From positions 124,001 to 188,000 of the forward strand of contig NZ_CP051215.1 of NCBI RefSeq assembly GCF_021496725.1: a stretch of 64,000 nucleotides of DNA. The letters run 5' to 3'. A program made the position numbers and the translations under genes. Shown in pieces: positions 2,223 through 39,322 of this stretch. The DNA is from Spiroplasma platyhelix PALS-1 (lineage in GTDB: Bacteria; Bacillota_I; Bacilli_A; Mycoplasmatales; VBWQ01). Below the pieces are notes generated by a model, which saw only the letters and a program-made list of their open reading frames with translations, did not search any database and had not been told where the DNA came from. Within the stretch, counting starts at the first letter, position 1. Each line of letters opens with the position of its first letter.

Positions 2223-2255
2223 CAATTATATATCAGAAAAAAAGGAGAGGTTTAA

Positions 2256-2795
2256 ATGAAAAAAGGATTAATTTTACTAACAAGTTTAGTACTAACAGGA
2301 ACTGCAGTAGCTCCAGTATTACAGCAAAATAACACACAAGAAATAGTAACTCCTTTGTTCCTAGTAAGGGACAATGTTGATTTAACATTACCAGAAAATG
2401 AAGATTCAAAAACTGTTGAATTAAAAAATTTAAAAAGAGGCTTAAATGAAATTTTTTTAGTTGATGAAGTTGTGGGTGTTAGTGAATCAGCAGCAACAAT
2501 AAAATATGCTAATAATAATCAACAAGAACTTATTTGATCAAATGATGAAGATGTAAATATTCTGTTAGAAGGAATTTTAGAACATAACGGATTTATCACT
2601 AAAGCAGAATTAAATATTTCACTTATCGATAATAAAGCAAATAATGTTGTTATTTCTTGAACGCAAGATGATAGTGAGGAAATTTTATCTGCTGTCATTG
2701 GAGAATTAGATTGAGAAATAATGGGTGTTAATCCAGCTGATTTTTTCACTAATGATATTGAATTTAAATATTATTTATGAATGAAGTTAAAGTAG
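2256..2795 (+). CDS. Small secreted protein, island family member 1
   Basis: No known function. 179 residues once three UGA-Trp codons are read. The N-terminus is a signal peptide (MKKGLILLTSLVLTGTAVAP) without a lipobox cysteine, so the product is probably released or loosely attached. The mature part is acidic and ends in a beta-rich segment with ELDWEIMGV and TNDIEFKYYL. These match RFDWRGIDM and TKDVKLEFEL in the reverse-strand gene at 6274, and RINWLQINM and TESVKLTYQL in the gene at 2933, so I call the three paralogs. Ribosome binding site AAGGAGAGG at 2242-2250. It is a single-gene transcription unit with its own promoter and terminator. Confidence 0.85.
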
Positions 2796-2823
2796 AATTA
2801 AATAGTTAAAGAAAACTTTACTT

Positions 2824-2850
2824 AAAAAGATGCTGATTAGCATCTTTTTT
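2824..2850 (+). terminator. Rho-independent terminator
   Basis: AAAAAGATGCT pairs with AGCATCTTTTTT around a GATT loop, 28 nt after the stop at 2795. Confidence 0.88.
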
Positions 2851-2873
2851 ATCTTTTTAAAAGTTTAGTGATA

Positions 2874-2901
2874 TGACAATAAAAATATTCATATTTATAA
2901 T
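2874..2901 (+). promoter_or_regulatory. Promoter of the gene at 2933
   Basis: TGACAA at 2874-2879 and TATAAT at 2896-2901, 16-nt spacer. It shares the bases between the two hexamers (TATTCAT then TTTATAATCA) with the promoter at 2195-2222. Confidence 0.7.
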
Positions 2902-2932
2902 CATTATATTATAAAGAAGGAAGGGATTATTC

Positions 2933-3439
2933 ATGAATAAAGAACAAAATCAATCTCATAGTAATCTTAATAAAGATGTTACAAAATCATTAAATGAAAT
3001 TTTTGAATTTGTTGACACAATTGACTTAACAAATTTAGCAGCAGAAGATATTGAAGTTGATCTACCTAATTTTTATCAAGGATTGATGGAACTTAGAGCA
3101 CAAGCAAGAAAAGCAGAAACAAAAAATCTTCACATCTACCTAACTAATCCAGAAGGTGAAACATTTGGTGGTAGAGCCGCTTTTCCATCTGACTGATTAG
3201 TGATTGCCTTTTTAATAGAAAAGCAAAGTTTAAAAATTAATCGAATAACATTTAAAGCGACAGCAAAAGCTCCATATCTTAACACAATTTTGGTTTATTA
3301 TAATCATCCAGAACTTTTTCCACCCAATTATCAATTAGTTGATGAAATTGGTAGAATTAATTGACTTCAGATTAACATGAAATTATGAGAGTCATATTGA
3401 ACTGAAAGCGTTAAATTAACTTATCAACTAAAAATTTAG
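2933..3439 (+). CDS. Leaderless paralog of the island's secreted proteins
   Basis: No known function. 168 residues. It starts MNKEQNQSHSNLNKDV with no hydrophobic stretch, so it should be cytosolic, unlike its relatives at 2256 and 6274. From about residue 30 it lines up with both: an IDLT segment, then LHIYLTNPEGETF (compare LMILTAPDGTV in the 6274 product), then APYLNTILVYY, RINWLQINM and a final VKLTYQL. The same region ends all three proteins. Ribosome binding site GAAGGAAGGG directly upstream. The gene has its own promoter and a strong terminator. A role as immunity partner, chaperone or regulator of the secreted forms is possible but untested. Confidence 0.82.
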
Positions 3440-3450
3440 TTACTAGTATT

Positions 3451-3496
3451 AAGAATAAAAAAAATACTTTTTAAAAAAAGTATTTTTTTTATTCTT
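3451..3496. terminator. Long inverted-repeat terminator
   Basis: A stem of about 20 bp, almost all A and T (AAGAATA run against TATTCTT), with A and T runs on both sides. It can stop transcription in both directions. It follows the gene at 2933. Confidence 0.8.
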
Positions 3497-3549
3497 TGAT
3501 ATATAGACAAATAATTTAAAAGTGATATATTAAGTTCTTAGTTAAATTT

Positions 3550-3577
3550 ATATTAATAATATTATTAATATTATAAT
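3550..3577 (+). promoter_or_regulatory. 22-bp palindrome abutting the -10 box of the Pip-type gene
   Basis: Bases 3550-3571 form a perfect A/T-only palindrome. TATAAT at 3572-3577 follows without a gap, so the palindrome covers the spacer and -35 region, where a dimeric repressor would bind. No repressor gene is adjacent. Low complexity makes chance more likely than it would be in mixed sequence. Confidence 0.45.
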
Positions 3578-3597
3578 AATATATGAAAGAGGATATT

Positions 3598-6204
3598 ATG
3601 AAGCGATATAATGGCTATGTTGATAGTGTGAAGGCAGAATTTGCAGAAAGAGTTTTTAGCAGTAGAAAAAGAGTAATTAAATTTATTGCTATTTGCTTTG
3701 TTCCTTTTTTATATGCTTTTATTTGTATCTGAGCATTTTGAGATCCAATTCCTAAGATTGGTGAAGCACCCATGGCTATTGTTAGCAATGATGCACCAAT
3801 TAATTTTATTGTTGGCAAAACATCAGATGGGAAATTAGCTGCTGGTGAGGCCTATAGTTATATTGAAGGTGGTCAGCCAGTTGTTATTGATGATAGCACT
3901 GATTGAGGTGCTATTGCTGATGGTACCGAATTTATCACAACAGCAGGAACAAAAATTGTTAAGTCTGCATCATTTATTCATAATAAAATGTCATTAGTTG
4001 ACAACTTAGTGGATGCCTGAAAGTCAGGCAGTGTTGACAATATTTCTTATGATCAAAATAAAGATAAATTTACTATTAAAGTTAATGAGACTATGTCGCT
4101 AACAAATTTGACTTATTTAAATGGTGCAGCAGCAAAAGAAATTGCTGAGCCTAAGTCAGATGGTTCTTGAGATGTTAAGAATGAAAGAAAATATTGAGCT
4201 CAAATTCAAATGCCAACAAAACTATCCAGTGATGTTCTAGGTTATTTTGATGCTAGTTTACAAAGAGCTTTTAAGTTACCAGTAGATGAGAATCAAGCGA
4301 AGGATCCAAGTGACTTCCTTACTGATTTGCAAAAAAATAGTATGCATTTTTGATCAACTTACAAGCATAATTTCTTATTTGGTCAATTCATGTATATTTT
4401 TGATGAATTTAAAAGTAGTTTATTAGTTGACTTAGGGCCACAAGTTATCAGTCAAATGATTTCTTTAATCATTCAAAACTCTCTAAATAACATCAAAAGT
4501 CAACTTGTCTTTACTGCTCCAGAGAATGCTGCTAAGACACTACCTATAGCGGGTGACCATGGTTCATCAGAGTTTCATAGTGTTTACTTTAAAGTTACGC
4601 AAGGAACAGAATATGTTATTCGTAATAAAGAAATGATTGATGCAATTAAAGCTGATACTGATTTTTCTAGTTGAACTATGCCAGAAAAGAGTATTGAAGG
4701 GACAACAGGAACAGATATCAGTCAACCTTGAGGAACAGATGGGTTTTTAAGCGTTCTTTCTGATAATTGGAATCAATTGATGCAAAGTCAAAATGGTGAT
4801 CTCATTGCTGGTAGTTTAGCAACGACACTAACTAAAAAAATTAATAGTCAGTTAATTGAAAAGAACTTAGGAAGTCTAACAATTGATAGTGATGGAATTA
4901 AAAAGTTATTTTCAACAGCAGGAAATATTGCTGGATTATTAGAGCAAGATGGTACTATCATTCCAAATGATAGTAATGCTAACTTTCCAATTAAAGCTAC
5001 TGGACCAATTGCTAGTCAAGTAACTGATTATAAAAGTTTAATCACTGTTGCTTCAGGTCCACTTCATACACAGTTTAATTTAATTAGTATTTTATCTGCT
5101 AATAGTAAAACGAGTACAAGTGCTTATGTCTTGCCTTTTGGAGATTTAGCAAAACCACAAAAAGGAACATTTAACTATAATTTACGTCATGATGTTAATG
5201 CTATTATGTATCTGGTTCTTGGTAGAGATGTTGCTGAAAATCAAACTCAAACATTAATTGCGCCTAGTTTATTTGCATTAGATGGATTATTGCCTAACTT
5301 AGATGACTTTATCAAAACGACTATTGTTGGGAGTCAATTTAATCCTTATGGGATTGGATTAGGACAGTTCTTCTTATGTATTGGATTATGAGTTGGTACT
5401 TTAATGCAAACATTTGTTTATGATCGAGCTAAGCGAGTTAAGAAAGCTAAGCCATGAGCATGATACTTATCAAAAACAACTTTAATGCTTGTTACAGCAT
5501 GAATCCAAACAACAATTTTGATGATTACTGTTTACGCTTTAGGTTGATCAGTTATGGGTTCAGCATTTGGGTTGATGTATTTATGAATGATGTTTACTGC
5601 AACTGTTTTTGTTGTCATTCAGCAAGCTTTATGGTTTAGTGTTCAAGATGAAACAGTTGGTAAGTTTTTAATAATTCTTTTATTAATTATCAACTTATCT
5701 TCTGGATGAGGAACTTTTCCAACATTTATGCAAGCAGGAATCTTTGATGTTTTAAGTTATATTGCACCATACACTTATTCAATGCATGGTCAAGGGGTCA
5801 TTATTTATAGTATTGCCATTAATGGTGCTAATTTAGCTGATACTTTATATATCTTGCAACAATTAGGAATTTTGATAATTTGAACTGTTGGTTTCTTAAT
5901 TATTGGGTTACTAGCTTCAATTTTAAGAAATCGCGAAATATATTATGGAACTTGTAAGAGTAAGAAACTCGCGAAGATTTTGATGGAAGAAAAATTAACT
6001 AAATATGTTGATCCAAAAACAAATAAAGCAATTTGAAAAAAACTGCCAAAAGAAGAGATGCCAAAAGTTCGCAAAAAAGTAATAAAACGTTTTCCAGAAG
6101 AAGGTCAGTATCAGTGGTACAAAGATTGAAAGGCAAAAAATAATCCTGATAAGCCAGTCACAGCTTCTGAGAGTGATGATGAAATTATGCGTCGAAATAA
6201 TTAA
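3598..6204 (+). CDS. YhgE/Pip-type ABC-2-like membrane protein
   Basis: 868 residues with many UGA-Trp codons. The family includes phage infection protein Pip, YhgE and the EsaA-type subunits; members are polytopic with a large extracellular domain between the first and later membrane helices. Seen here: an N-terminal helix (about 27-45) running into AFWDPIPKIGEAPMAIVSND, the family signature. About 550 extracellular residues follow, then five or six helices (about 595-780) and a basic cytoplasmic tail of about 80 residues. Start ATG 3598 with GAAAGAGG upstream. Export or surface function is inferred. It stands alone between terminators, flanked by genes for small secreted proteins, which may be its cargo. 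Confidence 0.82.
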
Positions 6205-22690: not shown

Positions 22691-24211
22691 ATGCGTAAAA
22701 GAGTGAATCTTTTGTTATCTTTTGTTTTGTATCTATTTTTAATTTGCTTGACAGTATTTTTATTCATCTATTACATTCGTTACTCTTGAGTGCTGTTACT
22801 AATTGTTGCGATTGTGACAATCCTAACAGTAATTATTATTTTTCTAACTAATCGTTTAATTGATGTTAAGTTATCCTGAATTATTGTTGTTGTTTGTTTA
22901 CCAGTTTTAGGAATTTTTCTTTACTGAGTTTTTGGTCGACCTTATCGTTATCGTAAGAAGCAAAAAGTACATTTAAATTTATTTAAATATTTTTACAAGC
23001 AAGAAGATTGAAATTTTACTAGAGAAGTCTTGAATAATGAAAATCCGAAATATAGTGCTGAAGATTTAGCAATTTTTAACTATACAACAAGAATTTCTTT
23101 TCGTCCAATTTACACCAATACTGATGTTCGTATTTTAGTTAATGGACCAGAAAATTACTATCAAATTATTGCTGATCTTAAAGAGGCTAAAAAATATATC
23201 TTTATGAATTACTATATTATCGGTGATGGAGAGCTGCTAGAAACAATTTTAAAAGTTCTAGAAAAAAAAGTTAAGGAAGGCGTAAAAGTTTATATCATTT
23301 ATGATCATGTTGGATCATATTTTCAGTTATCTCATGAAACAATTAGAAGAATTAAAAAAATGGGAATTAATTTTCAACGTTTCGCACCAATTAAACTACC
23401 AATCCTAACAGGAAGTTATAATTTCCGTAATCATCGTAAAGATGTCATCATAGATGGTCATATTGGCTACGCGGGTGGGATTAATTTATCAGATACTTAC
23501 ATTCATTTATCTGGCAGAGGCTTTTGACGTGATACGCAAGTTCGCTTAGTTGGGGATGCAGTTAAGTCATTAGAATTAATTTTTCGTCAAGACTGACATT
23601 TTATAACAGGAGTGATTCTTGATGTTTCATTTAATACTTCTAGTGTCAAGATAAAAAATGACATCATTGTTCAGTTAGTTGACGATGGACCGCTAACAAA
23701 AGAAGCAGTTCAAAAGGACTTATTTATTAGATACATTAGTATGGCAAAAAAACGAGTTTGAATTACAACTCCTTATTTATTTCCTACTGGAGATTTAATT
23801 ACTGCATTAAGAAATAGTGCTTATTCTGGAGTGGATGTTCGTTTGTGTCTTCCTGGGATTGTTGAGCACTATCTATTGTTAGATATGGGAAGAACTTATT
23901 ATGATGCTTTATTAGAAGCAGGAGTTAAGATTTATGAATATGCTCATGTTGTCAACCATTCAAAAATGGGAATTTTTGATGATAAATTTACGATTATTGG
24001 GTCAACAAATTTAGACTATCGTAGTCTCTATTCTGATCATCAAACTTTGGTTTCAATTTATGATGAAAAAACGAATGAAGTCCTAGCAAGTAAATTTAGC
24101 GAAGATTTTAAATACTCTAATTTAATTAAGAGCAACCCATTATTGCAACGCAATAAATTTTATCATTATGTCTTTTTATTCTTAATGAGAGTTTTAGCGC
24201 CATTATTTTAG
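22691..24211 (+). CDS. cls: Cardiolipin synthase
   Basis: Joins two phosphatidylglycerols into cardiolipin. 506 residues. Three N-terminal hydrophobic segments (about 5-30, 33-54 and 62-80) ending in the FGRPYRYRKK cap, then two phospholipase D domains. HKD motif 1: HRKDVIID in NHRKDVIIDGHIGYAGG. HKD motif 2: HSKMGIFD in NHSKMGIFDDKFTIIGSTN. Both have H-x-K-x4-D. ATG 22691 with AAAGGAG at 22678-22684. The next gene starts 22 nt downstream. Confidence 0.93.
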
Positions 24212-24233: not shown

Positions 24234-24881
24234 ATGAATTTAAATTTTAAAAAATTAAAAAAATTAATCAAAAAAGAAAAAAAAGCAGAAGATATTGATT
24301 TTTTTTATGTGCCTGATGATGGTGATGACAACAAAAATAAAAAAAACCATAAAGCTAAGAAAAGTCGTAATATTTTTCAGCATTTCCGTAGAAGAAACAC
24401 CTTACAAATTATTAAATATTTAGAATCTAAAAATATTTTTAATTGTTTTTTTTATACCGATGTTCATAATATTCCATTAATTTTAGAGCAAGGAATTAAA
24501 CCAACTGGACAAATCAAATTAGATCCGAAAGAAGAATACACTGTTTGAACATATCTAGAGCATGCTACTTATTTAGAATTAGAATTAGGAAATTCAACAA
24601 GACATTACTTTTGAAAGTGGTGCACAGATCAAAAAGTTGACTTGAATAATTTGGCGATTATTTCTGTTGATGTCAAAAAATTATTTCAAACAACAAAATT
24701 AGATTGAGAGTTGAATTTAGAAACTAATCGCATTCAAATTTATGAAAAAATTTCAAATGTTGCGATCGATTGAATTTTGATTAAGAATAAAAAGATGTTC
24801 AACTTAACTAAAATTCATGCTGAAAAGCAGAATTTAAAGTTGAAAGTATTTCAAGGCAATGCTGGACAAATTATTATCTAA
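24234..24881 (+). CDS. Unknown protein, possible ADP-ribosyltransferase-like fold
   Basis: Not firmly recognised. 215 residues. A strongly basic N-terminus (to about residue 60, Lys/Asn-rich) is followed by a globular part with FNCFFYTDVHNIPLILEQGI. This resembles the opening of DarT/DUF4433-type ADP-ribosyltransferases (tyrosine/histidine, N-I/L-P-x-I-L, then G-I/L). The other DarT blocks are not clear. The C-terminal part has AIISVDVKKLF and ISNVAIDWILI. It lies between cls and the GGDEF/EAL-like gene, with no DarG-like antitoxin beside it. Fold assignment is a hypothesis. Confidence 0.7.
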
Positions 24882-24895
24882 GAAAGGAGAAAGTC

Positions 24896-26689
24896 ATGAC
24901 TCTTAATTGAACAATTTTCTTATTTATAGCACTGGCCACTTTATTGTTACTTATGATTTTTTTCTTTGCAAGATTAAATAGTCGTAACAATCAATACTAC
25001 AACACGATTCATAGTGATTTGATGAATTTAGTGCCATTAAAAATTGATTTAGAAAATGAAATGATTACATTTTTTAGTCGCTTAGAAGTTTTAAATAATA
25101 AAAAGCGTACGTCAATTTTTGTTTTTAAATCAATGATTAATCGTAAAGCTAGGGTTGAATTAGAAATTTTGTTTCAAAACTTATTAGTTAACAAAGTTCC
25201 TTTTAGTCCAGTTAACTATTTAATTTATTTTCAATTGCATAATAAAATTATTATCTATGATTTGACATTAGATTATTATGATCAGGAGCATAAGGTTTTA
25301 TATGGTCAAATGCAAAGTAACACAAGATATAATCGTTTTGTGATTTCAGAGCATTTTGATGTTAATCCTGCACAACTAACTGTACCTAAGGCAGATTTTA
25401 TTGCAACAATTTTAAGTTTTTTTAAAGGTGTCAAATATAACCCTAAAGAAAAAAATCTTTATGAGTACATGATTTTAATTAAAATTAGAAATTATAATAA
25501 TTTAGAATCAATCTTAACAATTAACAATATTCAAAGTATGGAGTTGTTACTAACTTATTGTGCTAAGAATTTATTAGGTGCTACCAACACTTTAATTTGT
25601 AAGTATTATGATGGCGAGTTTTTAATTTATTCAAGACATAAGAAATTTAACTTATCAATATTTCAAAGACGCTTAAATAGTTACATTAAAAATAATTTAG
25701 TTGAAAAAAGTAGTTACTTACAAATTCAAACGCAAATTGTTGCTGTTTACTCTTTAATTAAGGGTAAGGAGTCTAATGTTTCAAATTTATACAATAAGAT
25801 TATCGATGTTAACTTATTGAATACTAGTGATAAGGATTTAAGAGAAATTAGATTACGAACATCAGAAAATCAAGGTAAAATTAATAATCATTATGAGTTA
25901 ATTCACTCACAAGAAATTAAAAAGCTTTTAGATATTACGATTGCTCCAGTTTATAAAACTGATAACGCTAAAGAACCAGATTGTTATTATGCTCGTTTGG
26001 GGTTAATTGATAACGCTTATTATGGAAACTACATTAATTTAATTCGTAATATTCAAGATGCAGGATTGTGATGAAAAGTTTATGAGCCATTGTTCTTACA
26101 AGTCTTACAAGATTTTGCGCAATTAAAAGTAAAGAAAAATTTGATTGTCCCTTTTTTATTAATGGAGTTAGAAAACAAAACAGTGCTAACACAAATTATT
26201 AACATCATTAAGAAACGTCAAAATTTATTTAAGGATGTTAGTTTAATTTTTGATTTCCAAGACAATTGTGTGACAAAAATTAATAATTGAGTTAAGTATG
26301 AAAATATTATTAGTACTCTACGTGAACATAATGTTAAAATTGCTTTTAGTCATGAATTAAGAAATATTAACAACTTTAAATTAATTAGTCATTTTAAACC
26401 TGATTTTGTGATCTTAACAGCTAACTTATTACAAAATGTTGCCTTTAGATTTAATCGCTATATCAAACTTATTATTTGTTTGAATTATTTAAGTATTTTA
26501 GGTTCAAAGAAGATTATTGCTTTAGGAGTTGATAGTGTTCCAGAGATTATTATGCTAAAATCATTAAATATTAAATACTTATCTGGTGACATTTTTGAAT
26601 CAGAAAATGTTGATAAAATAATTGATTCTTTAAATTATCCGAATTATTGAAGTTGAAAGAAGAGTCAGAATAAGAAAGGAAACAACTAA
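24896..26689 (+). CDS. Membrane protein with degenerate GGDEF-like and EAL-like domains
   Basis: 597 residues. One N-terminal helix (about 7-25). A middle region at about 185-290 looks like a GGDEF domain that has lost its signature: YYDGEFLIY at 237-245 where active enzymes have GGDEF. The C-terminal region (about 360-590) follows the EAL fold order: GLIDNAYYGNYINLIR, then LIFDFQDN, the strand-helix segment VKIAFSHELRNI, FKPDFVILT, and LGVDS at 543-547 (family EGVET). The metal-binding Glu residues are mostly missing, so the protein is probably a degenerate receptor or structural protein, not an active cyclase or phosphodiesterase. It starts 14 nt after its neighbour; proS begins 1 nt after its stop. 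Confidence 0.75.
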
Positions 26690-28141
26690 ATGGCCAAAGG
26701 CTTTAATAAAAATATTACTTTAAGAAGTGTTGATTTTGCTAAATGATATACCAATGTTATTACAGAAGCAGATCTTTGTGACTATGGTGATAGTAGTGGT
26801 TCACCAAAAGGAACAATTATTTTTCGTCCTTATGGTTACGCACTTTGAGAAAATTTTCAACAAGAATTGAATCAACAATTTAAAAAATTAGGTGTACAAA
26901 ATGTGATGTTTCCATTGTTAATTAATGAAAAAACTTTTGCTTTAGAAAAAGATCATATCCAAGGTTTTGCACCAGAATGTGCAATAGTTACTCAAGTTGG
27001 TGATAAAAAATTACAAGAAAATTTAATTATTCGTCCAACTTCAGAAGTTTTATTTTGTTCACATTTTCAAAAAATAGTTAGCAGTTACAAGCAACTGCCA
27101 TTACTTTATAATCAATGAGTTAGTGTCGTTCGTTGAGAAAAATCAACTAGACCATTTTTACGTAATACAGAATTTTTATGACAAGAAGGTCATACAGTTC
27201 ACGCTCAAGAGCAAGAAGCCCTTGACCTTGTGCTGACAATAATTAATTTGTATGCTAGTTTTGTTGAAAAGTTCTTAGCGATTAAAGTGATTTTAGGTAA
27301 GAAAACAGTTCATGAACGTTTTGCTGGTGCTTTAGAAACTTACACTATTGAAACAATGATGCAAGATGGACAAGCATTACAAGCAGGTACTAGTCACTAT
27401 TTTGGTCAAAAGTTTGCTGAAATTTTCAACATTAAATTTAGTAACCAACAAAACAAACAAGAATTTGCTTATCAAACTTCTTGAGGAACTTCAACTCGCT
27501 TAATTGGAGCATTAGTGATGGCACATAGTGATGATTTAGGGTTGGTGCTACCTGCTTTGATTGCCCCAACTAAAATGGTGATTTTAAATTTAATGCCAAA
27601 AGATCAGCAAGTTAGTCAAGCAGTTGATAAGTTAGCAAAAACTTTAGCACAAAAGTATTCAATTAGTGTTGATGCAAGTGATAAAAGTGCTAGTTACAAA
27701 AAATCTGAAGCAACAATCAAAGGTATACCCTTAATAATTGAAGTTGGTCAACAAGAGCTAACAAAGCAAGAAATTAAAGTAACAGCAAGACATAATCTAC
27801 AAGCAACTTTTATCAGTATCAAAGATGAACAGCAACTTTTAGCTAGTCTTGATCAGATTTTAGCAAGTTCTAATCACGAGTTACTGCAAACTTCAACAAA
27901 TAATTTTAATAGTAACTTAAAAGAAGTTACTGATTTTAAAGAGTATCAAACTTTGATTAAAAATCATAAAGGTTACATCATTGCTCCTTTTTGTGGTGAT
28001 TTTCAATGTGAAGCAGAAATCAAAAATCTTACTAGTACTACTTCACGTTGTATACCGCTAACACCATATAAACCTAATGCTAAATGTTTTAAGTGTCAAA
28101 AAGATAATTGTCCTTGAACTTATTTTGCCCGTTCTTATTAG
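26690..28141 (+). CDS. proS: Prolyl-tRNA synthetase, eukaryote/archaea-type
   Basis: Charges tRNA-Pro. 483 residues, the short ProS type without the bacterial editing insertion. Motif 2 is in [20 protein letters not shown], the HxxxH-like EGHTVH follows, and motif 3 is near TSWGTSTRLIGA. The C-terminal Zn-binding tail is present: CIPL, CFKC and ending YFARSY, as in this type. ATG directly follows the previous stop (TAAATG). The inverted-repeat terminator starts on its stop codon. Confidence 0.95.
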
Positions 28142-36492: not shown

Positions 36493-36919
36493 GGGGATGT
36501 TTAGGTTTCGACAGGAGTTAATGGCAAGTGATTGCAGTGGTCTGGTAGACCATAAGACTACGAGGTAGAAATAACCGGAAACAAAAACAAATCTGTAGTA
36601 CCTGCAGACATTAAAGAAAAGTTAAGTTCATTTAGCTTTGGTTTAAACAAATCAGCTAACTTAGCTACTTTAACTGCTTAAAATCAATTTAAATTGAGAA
36701 CTACCGTTAATTAAATAACTGTTTATTGTTATTAATTAACGTATTACAAATAAACTAGAAAAAGCGATGTTAATAAGCTTTTTTGAAACTCTAATTAACT
36801 AGTTAATATTAAATTTGTGGAATTAATTAATATTAGCGAAAAAAGTAATTCTACTAAACTGTAGATATTATTTGTTGGTTACCTTTTGGACACGGGTTCA
36901 ATTCCCGTCATCTCCACCA
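36493..36919 (+). ncRNA. ssrA: Transfer-messenger RNA
   Basis: Rescues stalled ribosomes with SmpB. The tRNA-like ends are clear: 5' GGGGATG pairs with 3' CATCTCC followed by A and CCA, and the T arm is GGTTCAATTCC. The tag frame probably runs from GCA at 36604 to TAA at 36679, 25 codons: ADIKEKLSSFSFG, then LNKSANLATLTA. The usual ALAA-like end is absent, as in other mollicutes, where Lon takes the place of ClpXP. The resume codon is inferred from the frame. Confidence 0.95.
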
Positions 36920-36927
36920 TTTTTATT

Positions 36928-36951
36928 AGCACTATATTTGTGCTTTTTTTA
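36928..36951 (+). terminator. Terminator after tmRNA
   Basis: AGCAC pairs with GTGCT around TATATTT, followed by seven Ts. Confidence 0.75.
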
Positions 36952-36960
36952 TTTGTTGTC

Positions 36961-36989
36961 TTGTCTTTTTAAAATATAGTTGATATGAT
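36961..36989 (+). promoter_or_regulatory. Promoter upstream of the tRNA array
   Basis: TTGTCT at 36961-36966 and TATGAT at 36984-36989, 17-nt spacer, 36 nt before tRNA-Cys. Confidence 0.45.
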
Positions 36990-37024
36990 AAAAAAGTGTT
37001 AAATAAGGGTTAATAAAAATATTT

Positions 37025-37100
37025 GGAGCTGTAGCCAAGTTGGTAAGGCACGAGTCTGCAAAACTCTCATTCGTCGGTTCAAGTCCGTCCAGCTCCTCCA
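37025..37100 (+). tRNA. tRNA-Cys (GCA)
   Basis: Acceptor GGAGCTG pairs with CAGCTCC, discriminator U73 as expected for Cys, anticodon GCA, encoded CCA. Confidence 0.95.
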
Positions 37101-37206
37101 TTTATTAATGTTAGTAAATGTTACTATTTATTAAAATTTAACTTGTAAAATTTTTTTTTAGAAAGTATAATTGTTAAGGTCTGTTATTAAGGATTAATAA
37201 ATTTGT

Positions 37207-37281
37207 GCGCCTATAGCTTAATGGATAGAGCATCTGACTACGGATCAGAAGGTGTGGGTTCAACTCCTGCTAGGCGCGCCA
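37207..37281 (+). tRNA. tRNA-Arg (ACG)
   Basis: Acceptor GCGCCTA pairs with TAGGCGC, anticodon ACG (A34 read as inosine), encoded CCA. First of the run that follows the Bacillus order Arg-Pro-Ala-Met-Ile-Ser-fMet-Asp-Phe. Confidence 0.95.
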
Positions 37282-37286
37282 GCCTT

Positions 37287-37363
37287 CGGGAAGTGGCTTA
37301 GCTTGGCAAAGCGCTCGGTTTGGGACCGAGAGATCGCAGGTTCAAATCCTGTCTTCCCGACCA
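37287..37363 (+). tRNA. tRNA-Pro (TGG)
   Basis: Acceptor CGGGAAG pairs with CTTCCCG, discriminator A73, anticodon TGG, encoded CCA. Only 5 nt after tRNA-Arg. Confidence 0.95.
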
Positions 37364-37378
37364 TTTATCAATTTTAAT

Positions 37379-37454
37379 GGGTTCGTAGCTCAGCTGGGAG
37401 AGCGCCTGCCTTGCACGCAGGAGGTCGTCGGTTCGATCCCGATCGGATCCACCA
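37379..37454 (+). tRNA. tRNA-Ala (TGC)
   Basis: Anticodon TGC in loop TTGCACG, encoded CCA. The acceptor GGGTTCG/CGGATCC contains two G-T pairs. Confidence 0.95.
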
Positions 37455-37475
37455 TTAAATTTAAAAACTATCTTT

Positions 37476-37553
37476 GGCGGGGTAGTTCAGTTGGTTTAGA
37501 ACATTCGGTTCATACCCGAAAGGTCATGGGTTCAAGTCCCGTCTCCGCTACCA
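37476..37553 (+). tRNA. tRNA-Met, elongator (CAT)
   Basis: Anticodon CAT, encoded CCA, acceptor GGCGGGG/CTCCGCT. Assigned as elongator by its place in the Bacillus-like order (after Ala, before Ile2) and an anticodon stem (TTCGG/CCGAA) lacking the three G-C pairs of initiators. Confidence 0.8.
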
Positions 37554-37561
37554 TATTGTTT

Positions 37562-37640
37562 GGACCCTTAGCTTAGCTTGGTTTAAAGTCCCCGGCTCAT
37601 AACCGGGTGATCATTGGTTCAAATCCAATAGGGTCCACCA
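37562..37640 (+). tRNA. tRNA-Ile2 (CAT, lysidine)
   Basis: Acceptor GGACCCT pairs with AGGGTCC, anticodon CAT, encoded CCA. Three CAT tRNAs lie in this array; this one occupies the Ile(AUA) position of the conserved order. Identity requires conversion of C34 to lysidine by TilS, which is not in this window. Confidence 0.72.
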
Positions 37641-37652
37641 TCAAATTTATAT

Positions 37653-37745
37653 GGGAACTTACCCAAGTCCGGTTGAAGGGACCAGTCTTGAAAACTGGGA
37701 GGCGTTGTGAGACGCGCGGGGGTTCAAATCCCTCAGTTCCCGCCA
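37653..37745 (+). tRNA. tRNA-Ser (TGA)
   Basis: Class II tRNA with a long variable arm, anticodon TGA, acceptor GGGAACT pairs with AGTTCCC, discriminator G73, encoded CCA. Confidence 0.95.
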
Positions 37746-37761
37746 TTAAAATTTAATATAT

Positions 37762-37836
37762 TTCGGAGTGGGGAAATGGTATCCCGTCGGGCTCATAACC
37801 CGAAGATTGTTAGTTCGAATCTGGCCTCCGAAACCA
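37762..37836 (+). tRNA. tRNA-fMet, initiator (CAT)
   Basis: Anticodon CAT with the three G-C pairs at the base of the anticodon stem (CGGG/CCCG) that mark initiators. The acceptor reads TTCGGAG/CTCCGAA, so position 1-72 is T-A, a weak pair rather than the typical C-A mismatch. Its place between Ser(TGA) and Asp matches fMet in the Bacillus order. Confidence 0.8.
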
Positions 37837-37838
37837 TT

Positions 37839-37914
37839 GGTCTCGTAGTGGAATGGCTAACACGCCCGCCTGTCACGCGGGAGATCGCGGGTTCGAACCC
37901 CGTCGGGACCGCCA
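37839..37914 (+). tRNA. tRNA-Asp (GTC)
   Basis: Acceptor GGTCTCG pairs with CGGGACC, discriminator G73, anticodon GTC, encoded CCA. Two bases after tRNA-fMet. Last of the contiguous array. Confidence 0.95.
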
Positions 37915-37933
37915 TTAAATTGTTAATTAAAGT

Positions 37934-37971
37934 AAAAAGCTAACTAATTTTAAAAATTAGTTAGCTTTTTT
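37934..37971. terminator. Terminator of the tRNA array
   Basis: AAAAAGCTAACTAATTTT pairs with AAAATTAGTTAGCTTTTT, a long stem with T run. Confidence 0.9.
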
Positions 37972-38054
37972 GTTAGAAAAAATAGTTTATTTGGTCAAAT
38001 CAGGTTCAAATATAATATAATTTTAGTAACAAGGATAGTTGATGGGAGTTTTTT

Positions 38055-38621
38055 ATGTTTTTTAAAAAAATCAGACATAGTAGTAACAATGATGCAATAA
38101 TGTTGTTGAAGTATGCTTTGTTAGGCCTGCTGTTGCTTCTAACACCAATAACATTATTTTTAACTGGGTTTGCTTGATATGGTAGTCTTCAGTTTTATAA
38201 AATTGGGAATCTTGAACTGCTTGAATTAGATCTTTATCTAAAAAATGGTCTGATTTTTGGTAGCGTTGGCTTGATTAGTTTTTTATTTTATTTCTTAATT
38301 TTTTTAGTGATTGATGCTTCTTTGAAACGTGTTGAATATAAGTGAAAGAAAGTTATTTTGTTGTTAGCAATTGCTGTGGCAACACTTTTCTTTTTATTGT
38401 TTGAAATTTTTTCAGCAATTTTTATTGAATATTTATATAGTTGACAGATGTCACTAGTTCTCACTTTTTGACCTTTAATTTATATCTTGATTCTTGTTCT
38501 TTTATTAGTAAATTATTTTGAGTTTTACAATGATTGAAAAATGCAAAGTGTCAATAAGAAAGCAGATGGTTCAAGATCAGAGATTGATGTTTTTCAAGAC
38601 CGTACTGAGATTATTTCTTAA
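38055..38621 (+). CDS. Four-helix membrane protein of unknown function
   Basis: Not recognised. 188 residues with about four membrane helices (roughly 18-42, 68-92, 104-125 and 135-155), a basic N-terminus (MFFKKIRHSSNN) and a charged C-terminal tail (KADGSRSEIDVFQDR). Five UGA-Trp codons. GGGAG at 38044-38048 supports ATG 38055. Its 3' end overlaps the convergent acetyltransferase gene by 11 nt. With that gene it splits tRNA-Asp from tRNA-Phe. Confidence 0.75.
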
Positions 38622-39162
38622 GATTTGCTAAATAATTTCTTTTTGTGATGGCAAATAATTTACAATCATGGATATCTGTACCTTTGATGAAATTATCATG
38701 TAATATACCTTCAAATTCCATATTGCAACTAAGCATTACTTTTTCTGAAGCAATGTTGTCTACAACACAAATTCCCTCAATTCTAATCGTATCTAAATTA
38801 TTGAAAGCATAGTCAATTAGCATTGATAGAGCTTCTTTAGTGTAGCCTTTTGTTCAATAGTTTTGATTCAAAGCATAGCCAATTGTTAGACATTTAGTGA
38901 TTGAATTGTAAGTAATAAAACCACAAGTACCAATAATTTTAGGATTATCTTTTAGCTGAATTCCTCACATTAGTTCATCTGATTTATTTATTTGACTAAC
39001 AAAATTAATGCTATCTTCAATTGTTTGATGAGGCTCTCAAAAAACATATTTTGCTACTGCTTCGTTGTTGGCGTATTCAAAAATACTTTCAGCATCATTT
39101 AAAGTAAGAGCACGAAGAATAAGTCTTGAACTTGTTAGCGTTGGGATTTCTTTATCAGTCAT
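38611..39162 (-). CDS. GNAT acetyltransferase, RimJ/RimL type
   Basis: 183 residues, reverse strand. Starts TSSRLILRALTLNDAESIF, the usual RimJ/RimL opening (T-x-R-L-x-L-R). Then GTCGFITYN, IGYALNQNYWTKGYTKEAL (the acetyl-CoA motif A, family W-x-x-G-Y/x-x-x-E-A) and VVDNIASEKVMLSCNMEFEG. Substrate may be a ribosomal protein N-terminus or a small amine; not resolvable from sequence. AGGTGA on the reverse strand upstream of 39162. Confidence 0.88.
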
Positions 39163-39246
39163 AATTTTCACCTTTTAAAATAGAATATAATCTCTTAAAT
39201 TATATCTTGTTATTTTATTATTTTATGATATTATTTTAAAGTTAGC

Positions 39247-39322
39247 GGTCGGGTAGCTCAGTTGGTAGAGCATATGATTGAAGCTCATAGTGTCGGCGGT
39301 TCGATTCCGCCCTTGACCACCA
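39247..39322 (+). tRNA. tRNA-Phe (GAA)
   Basis: Acceptor GGTCGGG/CTTGACC with G-T pairs, discriminator A73, anticodon GAA, encoded CCA. It would directly follow tRNA-Asp in the Bacillus-like order; here 1.3 kb separates them. Confidence 0.95.

Follow-up and report, generated by a model that had tools for sequence, protein, structure and literature searches.

The window analysed here is the whole stretch of 64,000 nucleotides, positions 124001-188000 of a 744,499-base contig. TGA is read as tryptophan in it, with six such codons within 24896-26689, and the named organisms closest to its host are Spiroplasma sp. A83_bin3_2, Spiroplasma sp. JKS002669 and S. ixodetis strain SHM. The host is therefore a mollicute and, judging from these relationships, belongs to the ixodetis-like Spiroplasma with small genomes. 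We refer to its Spiroplasma family as f1 and to a family of small-genome Bacilli (mostly ~0.7-2.1 Mb) as f16. The locus is centred on a gene for a 597-aa protein with the domain order TM-PAS-GGDEF-EAL, which is followed by proS. Its features are as follows.

22691..24211, + strand: protein of the phospholipase-D/cardiolipin-synthase type, probably encoded by the gene that opens the cluster
24234..24881, + strand: conserved protein of 215 aa with no Pfam family, 14 bp upstream of the next gene and probably in the same operon
24896..26689, + strand: coding sequence (genetic code 4) for the 597-aa membrane-anchored degenerate PAS-GGDEF-EAL protein
24902..24973, + strand: N-terminal membrane helix, about residues 3-26 (AlphaFold2 model and sequence)
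25028..25318, + strand: PAS-like domain, residues 45-141 (AlphaFold2 secondary structure; Foldseek matches to PAS-GGDEF-EAL proteins)
25388..25819, + strand: degenerate GGDEF-like domain, residues 165-308 (profile-profile comparison; fold)
25610..25621, + strand: DGEF at the GGDEF position, residues 239-242 (alignment to canonical GGDEF)
25889..26626, + strand: degenerate EAL-like domain, residues 332-577 (Pfam EAL; profile-profile comparison; fold)
26249..26263, + strand: FDFQD at the canonical E-x-T-E place, residues 452-456, invariant in Spiroplasma
26522..26536, + strand: LGVDS at the EGVET place, residues 543-547 (alignment)
26675..26680, + strand: AAAGGA, likely ribosome-binding site of proS by its sequence, within the 3' end of the GGDEF-EAL gene
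26690..28141, + strand: proS, prolyl-tRNA synthetase (ProRS), 483 aa, beginning right after the upstream stop codon

The first ~27 residues of the 597-aa protein form a hydrophobic helix, which spans residues 2-43 in the AlphaFold2 model. The C-terminal half was recognized directly by Pfam, with EAL (PF00563) scoring 37.2 bits against a curated cut-off of 31.3 over residues 389-567, while the S. ixodetis homologues reached only 20-21 bits. Together with the predicted fold, for which Foldseek returned many EAL structures, this places the region among EAL domains. The GGDEF domain (PF00990) gave no match to the single protein in either Pfam or NCBIfam. Since Pfam was blind to this region, we built a family profile from 39 members and compared it with profiles of the canonical domains. 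The GGDEF region matched canonical GGDEF at 95.3% (E 2e-8), where five column-shuffled control profiles reached 0.1-0.4%, and the EAL region matched canonical EAL at 97.1% (E 6e-11). A profile made of Spiroplasma sequences alone reached 1.4% with canonical GGDEF, i.e. the domain was not found, and hence the GGDEF assignment rests on the distant relatives and on structure. Despite the Pfam result on the single protein, the family profile and the predicted fold both place this region in the GGDEF fold.

The AlphaFold2 model built with 38 homologues had a mean pLDDT of 72 and a pTM of 0.49, an earlier run with nine close homologues being weaker (pLDDT 63). Searched against the PDB with Foldseek, the model matched the PAS-GGDEF-EAL proteins DosP and PA0861 as well as LapD, MorA and PA0575 (E 1e-16 to 1e-13). 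The leading matches cover all three domains, and on this ground a PAS-like domain preceding the GGDEF-like one should be added to the predicted architecture, the model being of moderate confidence. Independently of the fold search, the sequence profile matched FimX (E 8e-5) and PA0575 (E 0.0014) in the PDB, whereas the single 597-aa sequence gave a marginal EAL match alone (BlrP1, E 0.21). The enzymes DosP and PA0861, the top Foldseek matches (E ~1e-16), share the domain order of the 597-aa protein. They differ from it in having kept the EAL catalytic residues, as the protein described here keeps no canonical motif.

Indeed, in the profile alignment YYDGEF (residues 237-242) falls on canonical RYGGDEF, and the form D-G-[E/Q]-F occurs in all nine Spiroplasma homologues, as DGEF in the 597-aa protein and DGQF in relatives. 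The GG(D/E)EF signature of an active diguanylate cyclase is thus missing. Alignment with canonical EAL domains placed PDCYYA at the EAL glutamate and IVPFLL at the asparagine region; ExTE is replaced by D-x-x-D (FDFQD), DDFG by SHEL, the lysine region by PDFVIL and EGVE by LGVD (ALGVDS, residues 542-547). Of the residues that an active EAL phosphodiesterase requires, namely the E of EAL, N and K together with ExTE, DDFG and EGVE, none is therefore retained. A scan of the 39 family members found no GGDEF-type motif and no EGVE in any of them, and a DDFG-like string in one. The original prediction, made from the letters alone, had proposed a membrane anchor, a domain with DGEF in place of GGDEF and a domain following EAL order with LGVDS for EGVET; all three stand, the matching to GGDEF and EAL profiles that it had suggested as a check came out positive for both domains when the family profile was used, and both folds are present in the predicted structure.

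It had also suggested a ligand-binding or scaffolding role. Binding of c-di-GMP by degenerate EAL domains is governed by an ExLxR motif (PMC10333796). This motif is absent from the 597-aa protein, where PDCYYARLGL stands at the corresponding place, a stretch that relatives do not conserve. Because the ExLxR-type residues of LapD and FimX have been lost as well, ligand binding of the c-di-GMP type is disfavoured. From these sequence features, it is very unlikely that the protein makes, breaks or binds c-di-GMP in the usual mode, and a candidate role as scaffold or adaptor fits better than ligand binding.

The genomes of the carriers were then considered. In the host genome we found no GGDEF domain and no EAL protein other than the 597-aa protein, so the search for an active GGDEF protein elsewhere in the genome, which the original prediction had proposed as a check, detected none. 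GGDEF was likewise found in none of the nine Spiroplasma carriers (the host and its eight closest relatives), and PilZ in none of 37 genomes of carriers and relatives, host included, while control genomes in these searches gave the expected matches. Taking at least one GGDEF synthase per genome as the mark of a c-di-GMP system, none of the nine Spiroplasma carriers showed one. Within the order, 1 of 248 genomes exceeded the GGDEF cut-off. Among the distant f16 carriers, 4 of 21 had GGDEF proteins, and contact with c-di-GMP is therefore possible there. The claim that a degenerate pair persists in a mollicute with no detectable c-di-GMP machinery is borne out for the host by the searches for GGDEF, PilZ and EAL.

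Homologues were present in all nine f1 genomes searched, the other eight being 56-66% identical to the host copy. A 595-aa homologue from f16 led to a larger set, with the gene found in 58 of 395 Bacilli genomes; within f16, it was found in 92 of 96 genomes. The gene is thus not a one-off, and its family extends to distant Bacilli. In Spiroplasma the reading frame was full length in 9/9, and in f16 it was so for most of the 92 genomes matched. Between Spiroplasma pairs, dN/dS ranged from 0.03 to 0.29 for the GGDEF-EAL gene and from 0.08 to 0.24 for proS. The gene is under purifying selection like that on proS and is not decaying, in agreement with the idea that an inactive pair has been retained. 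As motif loss is common to both families, the gene has been kept long after its activity was lost.

The tight linkage to proS noted in the original prediction is real and old. In f16, proS lay directly downstream on the same strand (~-10 to +104 bp) in all 44 carriers from the search of 395 Bacilli genomes, and in f1 directly downstream within 12 bp in 9/9, while the outer neighbours varied far more than the pair itself. In a more distant family (f27), the homologue was not adjacent to proS, and several mollicute families have proS without the GGDEF-EAL gene; the two are therefore not obligate partners. The neighbour at 24234, highlighted along with proS, is a separate gene conserved in mollicutes; a gene of its type immediately precedes proS in f5 and f9, two other mollicute families (L171:6939-7520; L172:6484-7176), with no GGDEF-EAL gene there. 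The breadth across f1 and f16, the constant adjacency to proS, the proS-like constraint and the PAS-like domain all go beyond what had been predicted.

Several other aspects of the neighbourhood were considered. In a ProRS tree, which is unrooted and weak in its deep branches, each family formed its own clade and f1 was not nested in f16; a recent transfer of the gene pair from f16 to Spiroplasma thus finds no support in this tree. Control by a riboswitch or T-box was set aside, Rfam at its gathering threshold having returned nothing but tRNAs and tmRNA in the window and, in eight relative loci, nothing but tRNAs. The Rfam matches in the window are a tmRNA followed by a dense tRNA cluster (37025-37911 and 39247), within positions 36493-39319. 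Of note, the gene at 24234-24881 carries a motif pattern, YFYTD..NI..ILE.GI ... E.IP..AI, that recalls DarT-type ADP-ribosyltransferases, the sole trace in the PDB search being DarT1 (E 0.28). In f16, genes of clusters c2-c9 form a block that frequently, though not constantly, lies close to the pair (L062, L064, L065, L066, L068); by eye, cluster c2 of this block is a YitT-type membrane protein.

What, then, might the protein do? The proS adjacency across distantly related bacteria, together with selection, points to a job other than c-di-GMP signalling. In the reading that we consider probable, the gene product is a membrane-anchored PAS-GGDEF-EAL protein without enzymatic activity, which acts as a c-di-GMP-independent, CsrD-like adaptor and is expressed in an operon with proS. 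Two parts of this reading, the independence from c-di-GMP and the predicted operon, are each highly likely. The closest parallel is E. coli CsrD, which lacks the catalytic residues, apparently does not respond to c-di-GMP and is switched by EIIAGlc binding to its EAL domain (PMC5027483). Both proteins combine a membrane anchor with a catalytically dead GGDEF-EAL tandem, and the EAL domain of CsrD is a docking site (PMC5027483). CsrD, whose function lies in CsrB/C RNA decay with RNase E, differs in having HAMP and a periplasmic sensor, where the 597-aa protein has a PAS-like domain and linkage to proS; we therefore count the latter as working like CsrD, not as a member of its family, although it shows the anchor and dead tandem typical of that family. 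Similar in its N-terminal order is GdpP, a c-di-AMP phosphodiesterase of Firmicutes, with TM, PAS and degenerate GGDEF (PMC5508000), but its C-terminus is DHH/DHHA1 instead of EAL-like.

The protein would have taken on a new role when cyclic-di-GMP signalling was lost, or afterwards, and by analogy with CsrD it would act by contacting other proteins or RNA. Its PAS-like and GGDEF-like domains may respond to an internal signal or govern the dimer state, and the EAL-like domain may serve as a docking surface held at the membrane. One transcript with proS would make the protein level follow growth and translation. ProRS or its mRNA is a tentative candidate for the functional partner, and we hold this part of the proposal to be doubtful. 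The broader idea that mollicutes and related Bacilli with small genomes share an overlooked c-di-GMP-independent regulatory family of degenerate PAS-GGDEF-EAL proteins, whose proS-linked branch regulates ProRS physically or translationally and so relays signals from the membrane or from metabolism to tRNA charging, is in our view unlikely.

In a simpler account, the linkage is only positional: proS borrows its promoter from the upstream gene, whose product serves an unrelated process. We give this account an even chance. It draws on the start of proS at the upstream stop codon with the ribosome-binding site inside the upstream gene, on the DarT-like gene occupying that place in other mollicute families, and on the f27 protein lying away from proS. 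A purely positional link sits less easily with a pair that is unbroken in all 44 f16 loci, where most of the outer neighbours differ, and that recurs in f1. This account is compatible with a CsrD-like adaptor and opposes only ProRS as its partner.

Two further explanations concern the protein itself. A receptor for cyclic dinucleotides similar to LapD or FimX, in which a degenerate EAL or GGDEF domain senses c-di-GMP (or c-di-AMP) and relays the signal at the membrane, might be expected from the presence of LapD and FimX among the best fold and profile matches, and mollicutes do make c-di-AMP (PMC5508000). LapD and FimX share both folds with the 597-aa protein, but they keep the c-di-GMP-binding residues, including the ExLxR-type motif and other ligand contacts that are gone here, and they work in c-di-GMP-producing cells, whereas neither GGDEF nor PilZ was found in the host or the Spiroplasma carriers searched. 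We regard such a receptor as improbable. A functionless, decaying relic of a c-di-GMP system would account for the lost catalytic motifs and for the very far divergence of possible relatives in families f4, f7 and f11. It is contradicted by dN/dS values no worse than those of proS, on which we rejected it, and by the full-length frames, and is scarcely credible.

Degenerate GGDEF-EAL proteins are usually read as part of a c-di-GMP network. Strong selection on this gene in genomes with no detectable network therefore argues for a role there that is independent of c-di-GMP, and would make these genomes a clean system for asking what the GGDEF and EAL folds do besides enzymology. The same point touches gene U1 of Ca. 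Oceanoplasma callogorgiae, which is highly transcribed and whose product has a TM segment and matches EAL (PMC11535214), the EAL having been published as a hint of c-di-GMP use (PMC11535214). The U1 product, compared here by its description, shares with the 597-aa protein its mollicute origin, the TM segment and the match to EAL. As the mollicute EAL proteins that we examined are degenerate and have no GGDEF partners, the presence of EAL alone is insufficient to infer c-di-GMP signalling, and the published inference should be re-examined. For a gene shared by a large family of poorly known small-genome Bacilli, the present analysis supplies an annotation, maps the network of homologues and points to ProRS as an operon partner that can be tested. 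The family was not described in the open-access titles and abstracts searched on Spiroplasma combined with EAL or c-di-GMP, or on GGDEF combined with prolyl-tRNA synthetase, a scope outside which most subscription papers fall, so that priority is unproven.

Derived relatives of the 597-aa protein are also encoded by other mollicutes, next to mgtE or pcrA. In family f5, of the same order, a second, different family of such proteins (587-682 aa in the loci read) has several membrane helices followed by GGDEF-like and EAL regions, both degenerate. In 16/16 loci with neighbours inspected, their gene is directly followed by what is by eye an mgtE-like gene (loci L105-L124, e.g. L105:466-2226 for GGDEF-EAL and 2240-3670 for the mgtE-like magnesium transporter). 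Compared over 377 columns that take in both GGDEF and EAL, the f5 profile matched that of the proS-linked family at 97.2%. The f4 protein, with a single TM segment and encoded beside pcrA, matched the proS-linked family at 96.7% over nearly its full length and by this comparison appears clearly to be a distant relative. Matches were lower for a 568-aa f10 protein encoded between pcrA and proS (46%) and for a pcrA-adjacent single-TM protein of f7 (65% over 81 columns, merely suggestive); the corresponding f11 protein gave a non-significant 10% against the family profile, and homology is claimed for neither f7 nor f11. The proS-linked family may perhaps also inform on these unnamed membrane proteins beside pcrA. 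In f4, f7, f10 and f11, single-TM proteins of ~445-572 aa follow pcrA (L160:2569-4188; L159:3390-5093; L164, L176, L179-L190), and such a protein lies between pcrA and proS twice, at L159 and at L190, the latter from one f11 genome.
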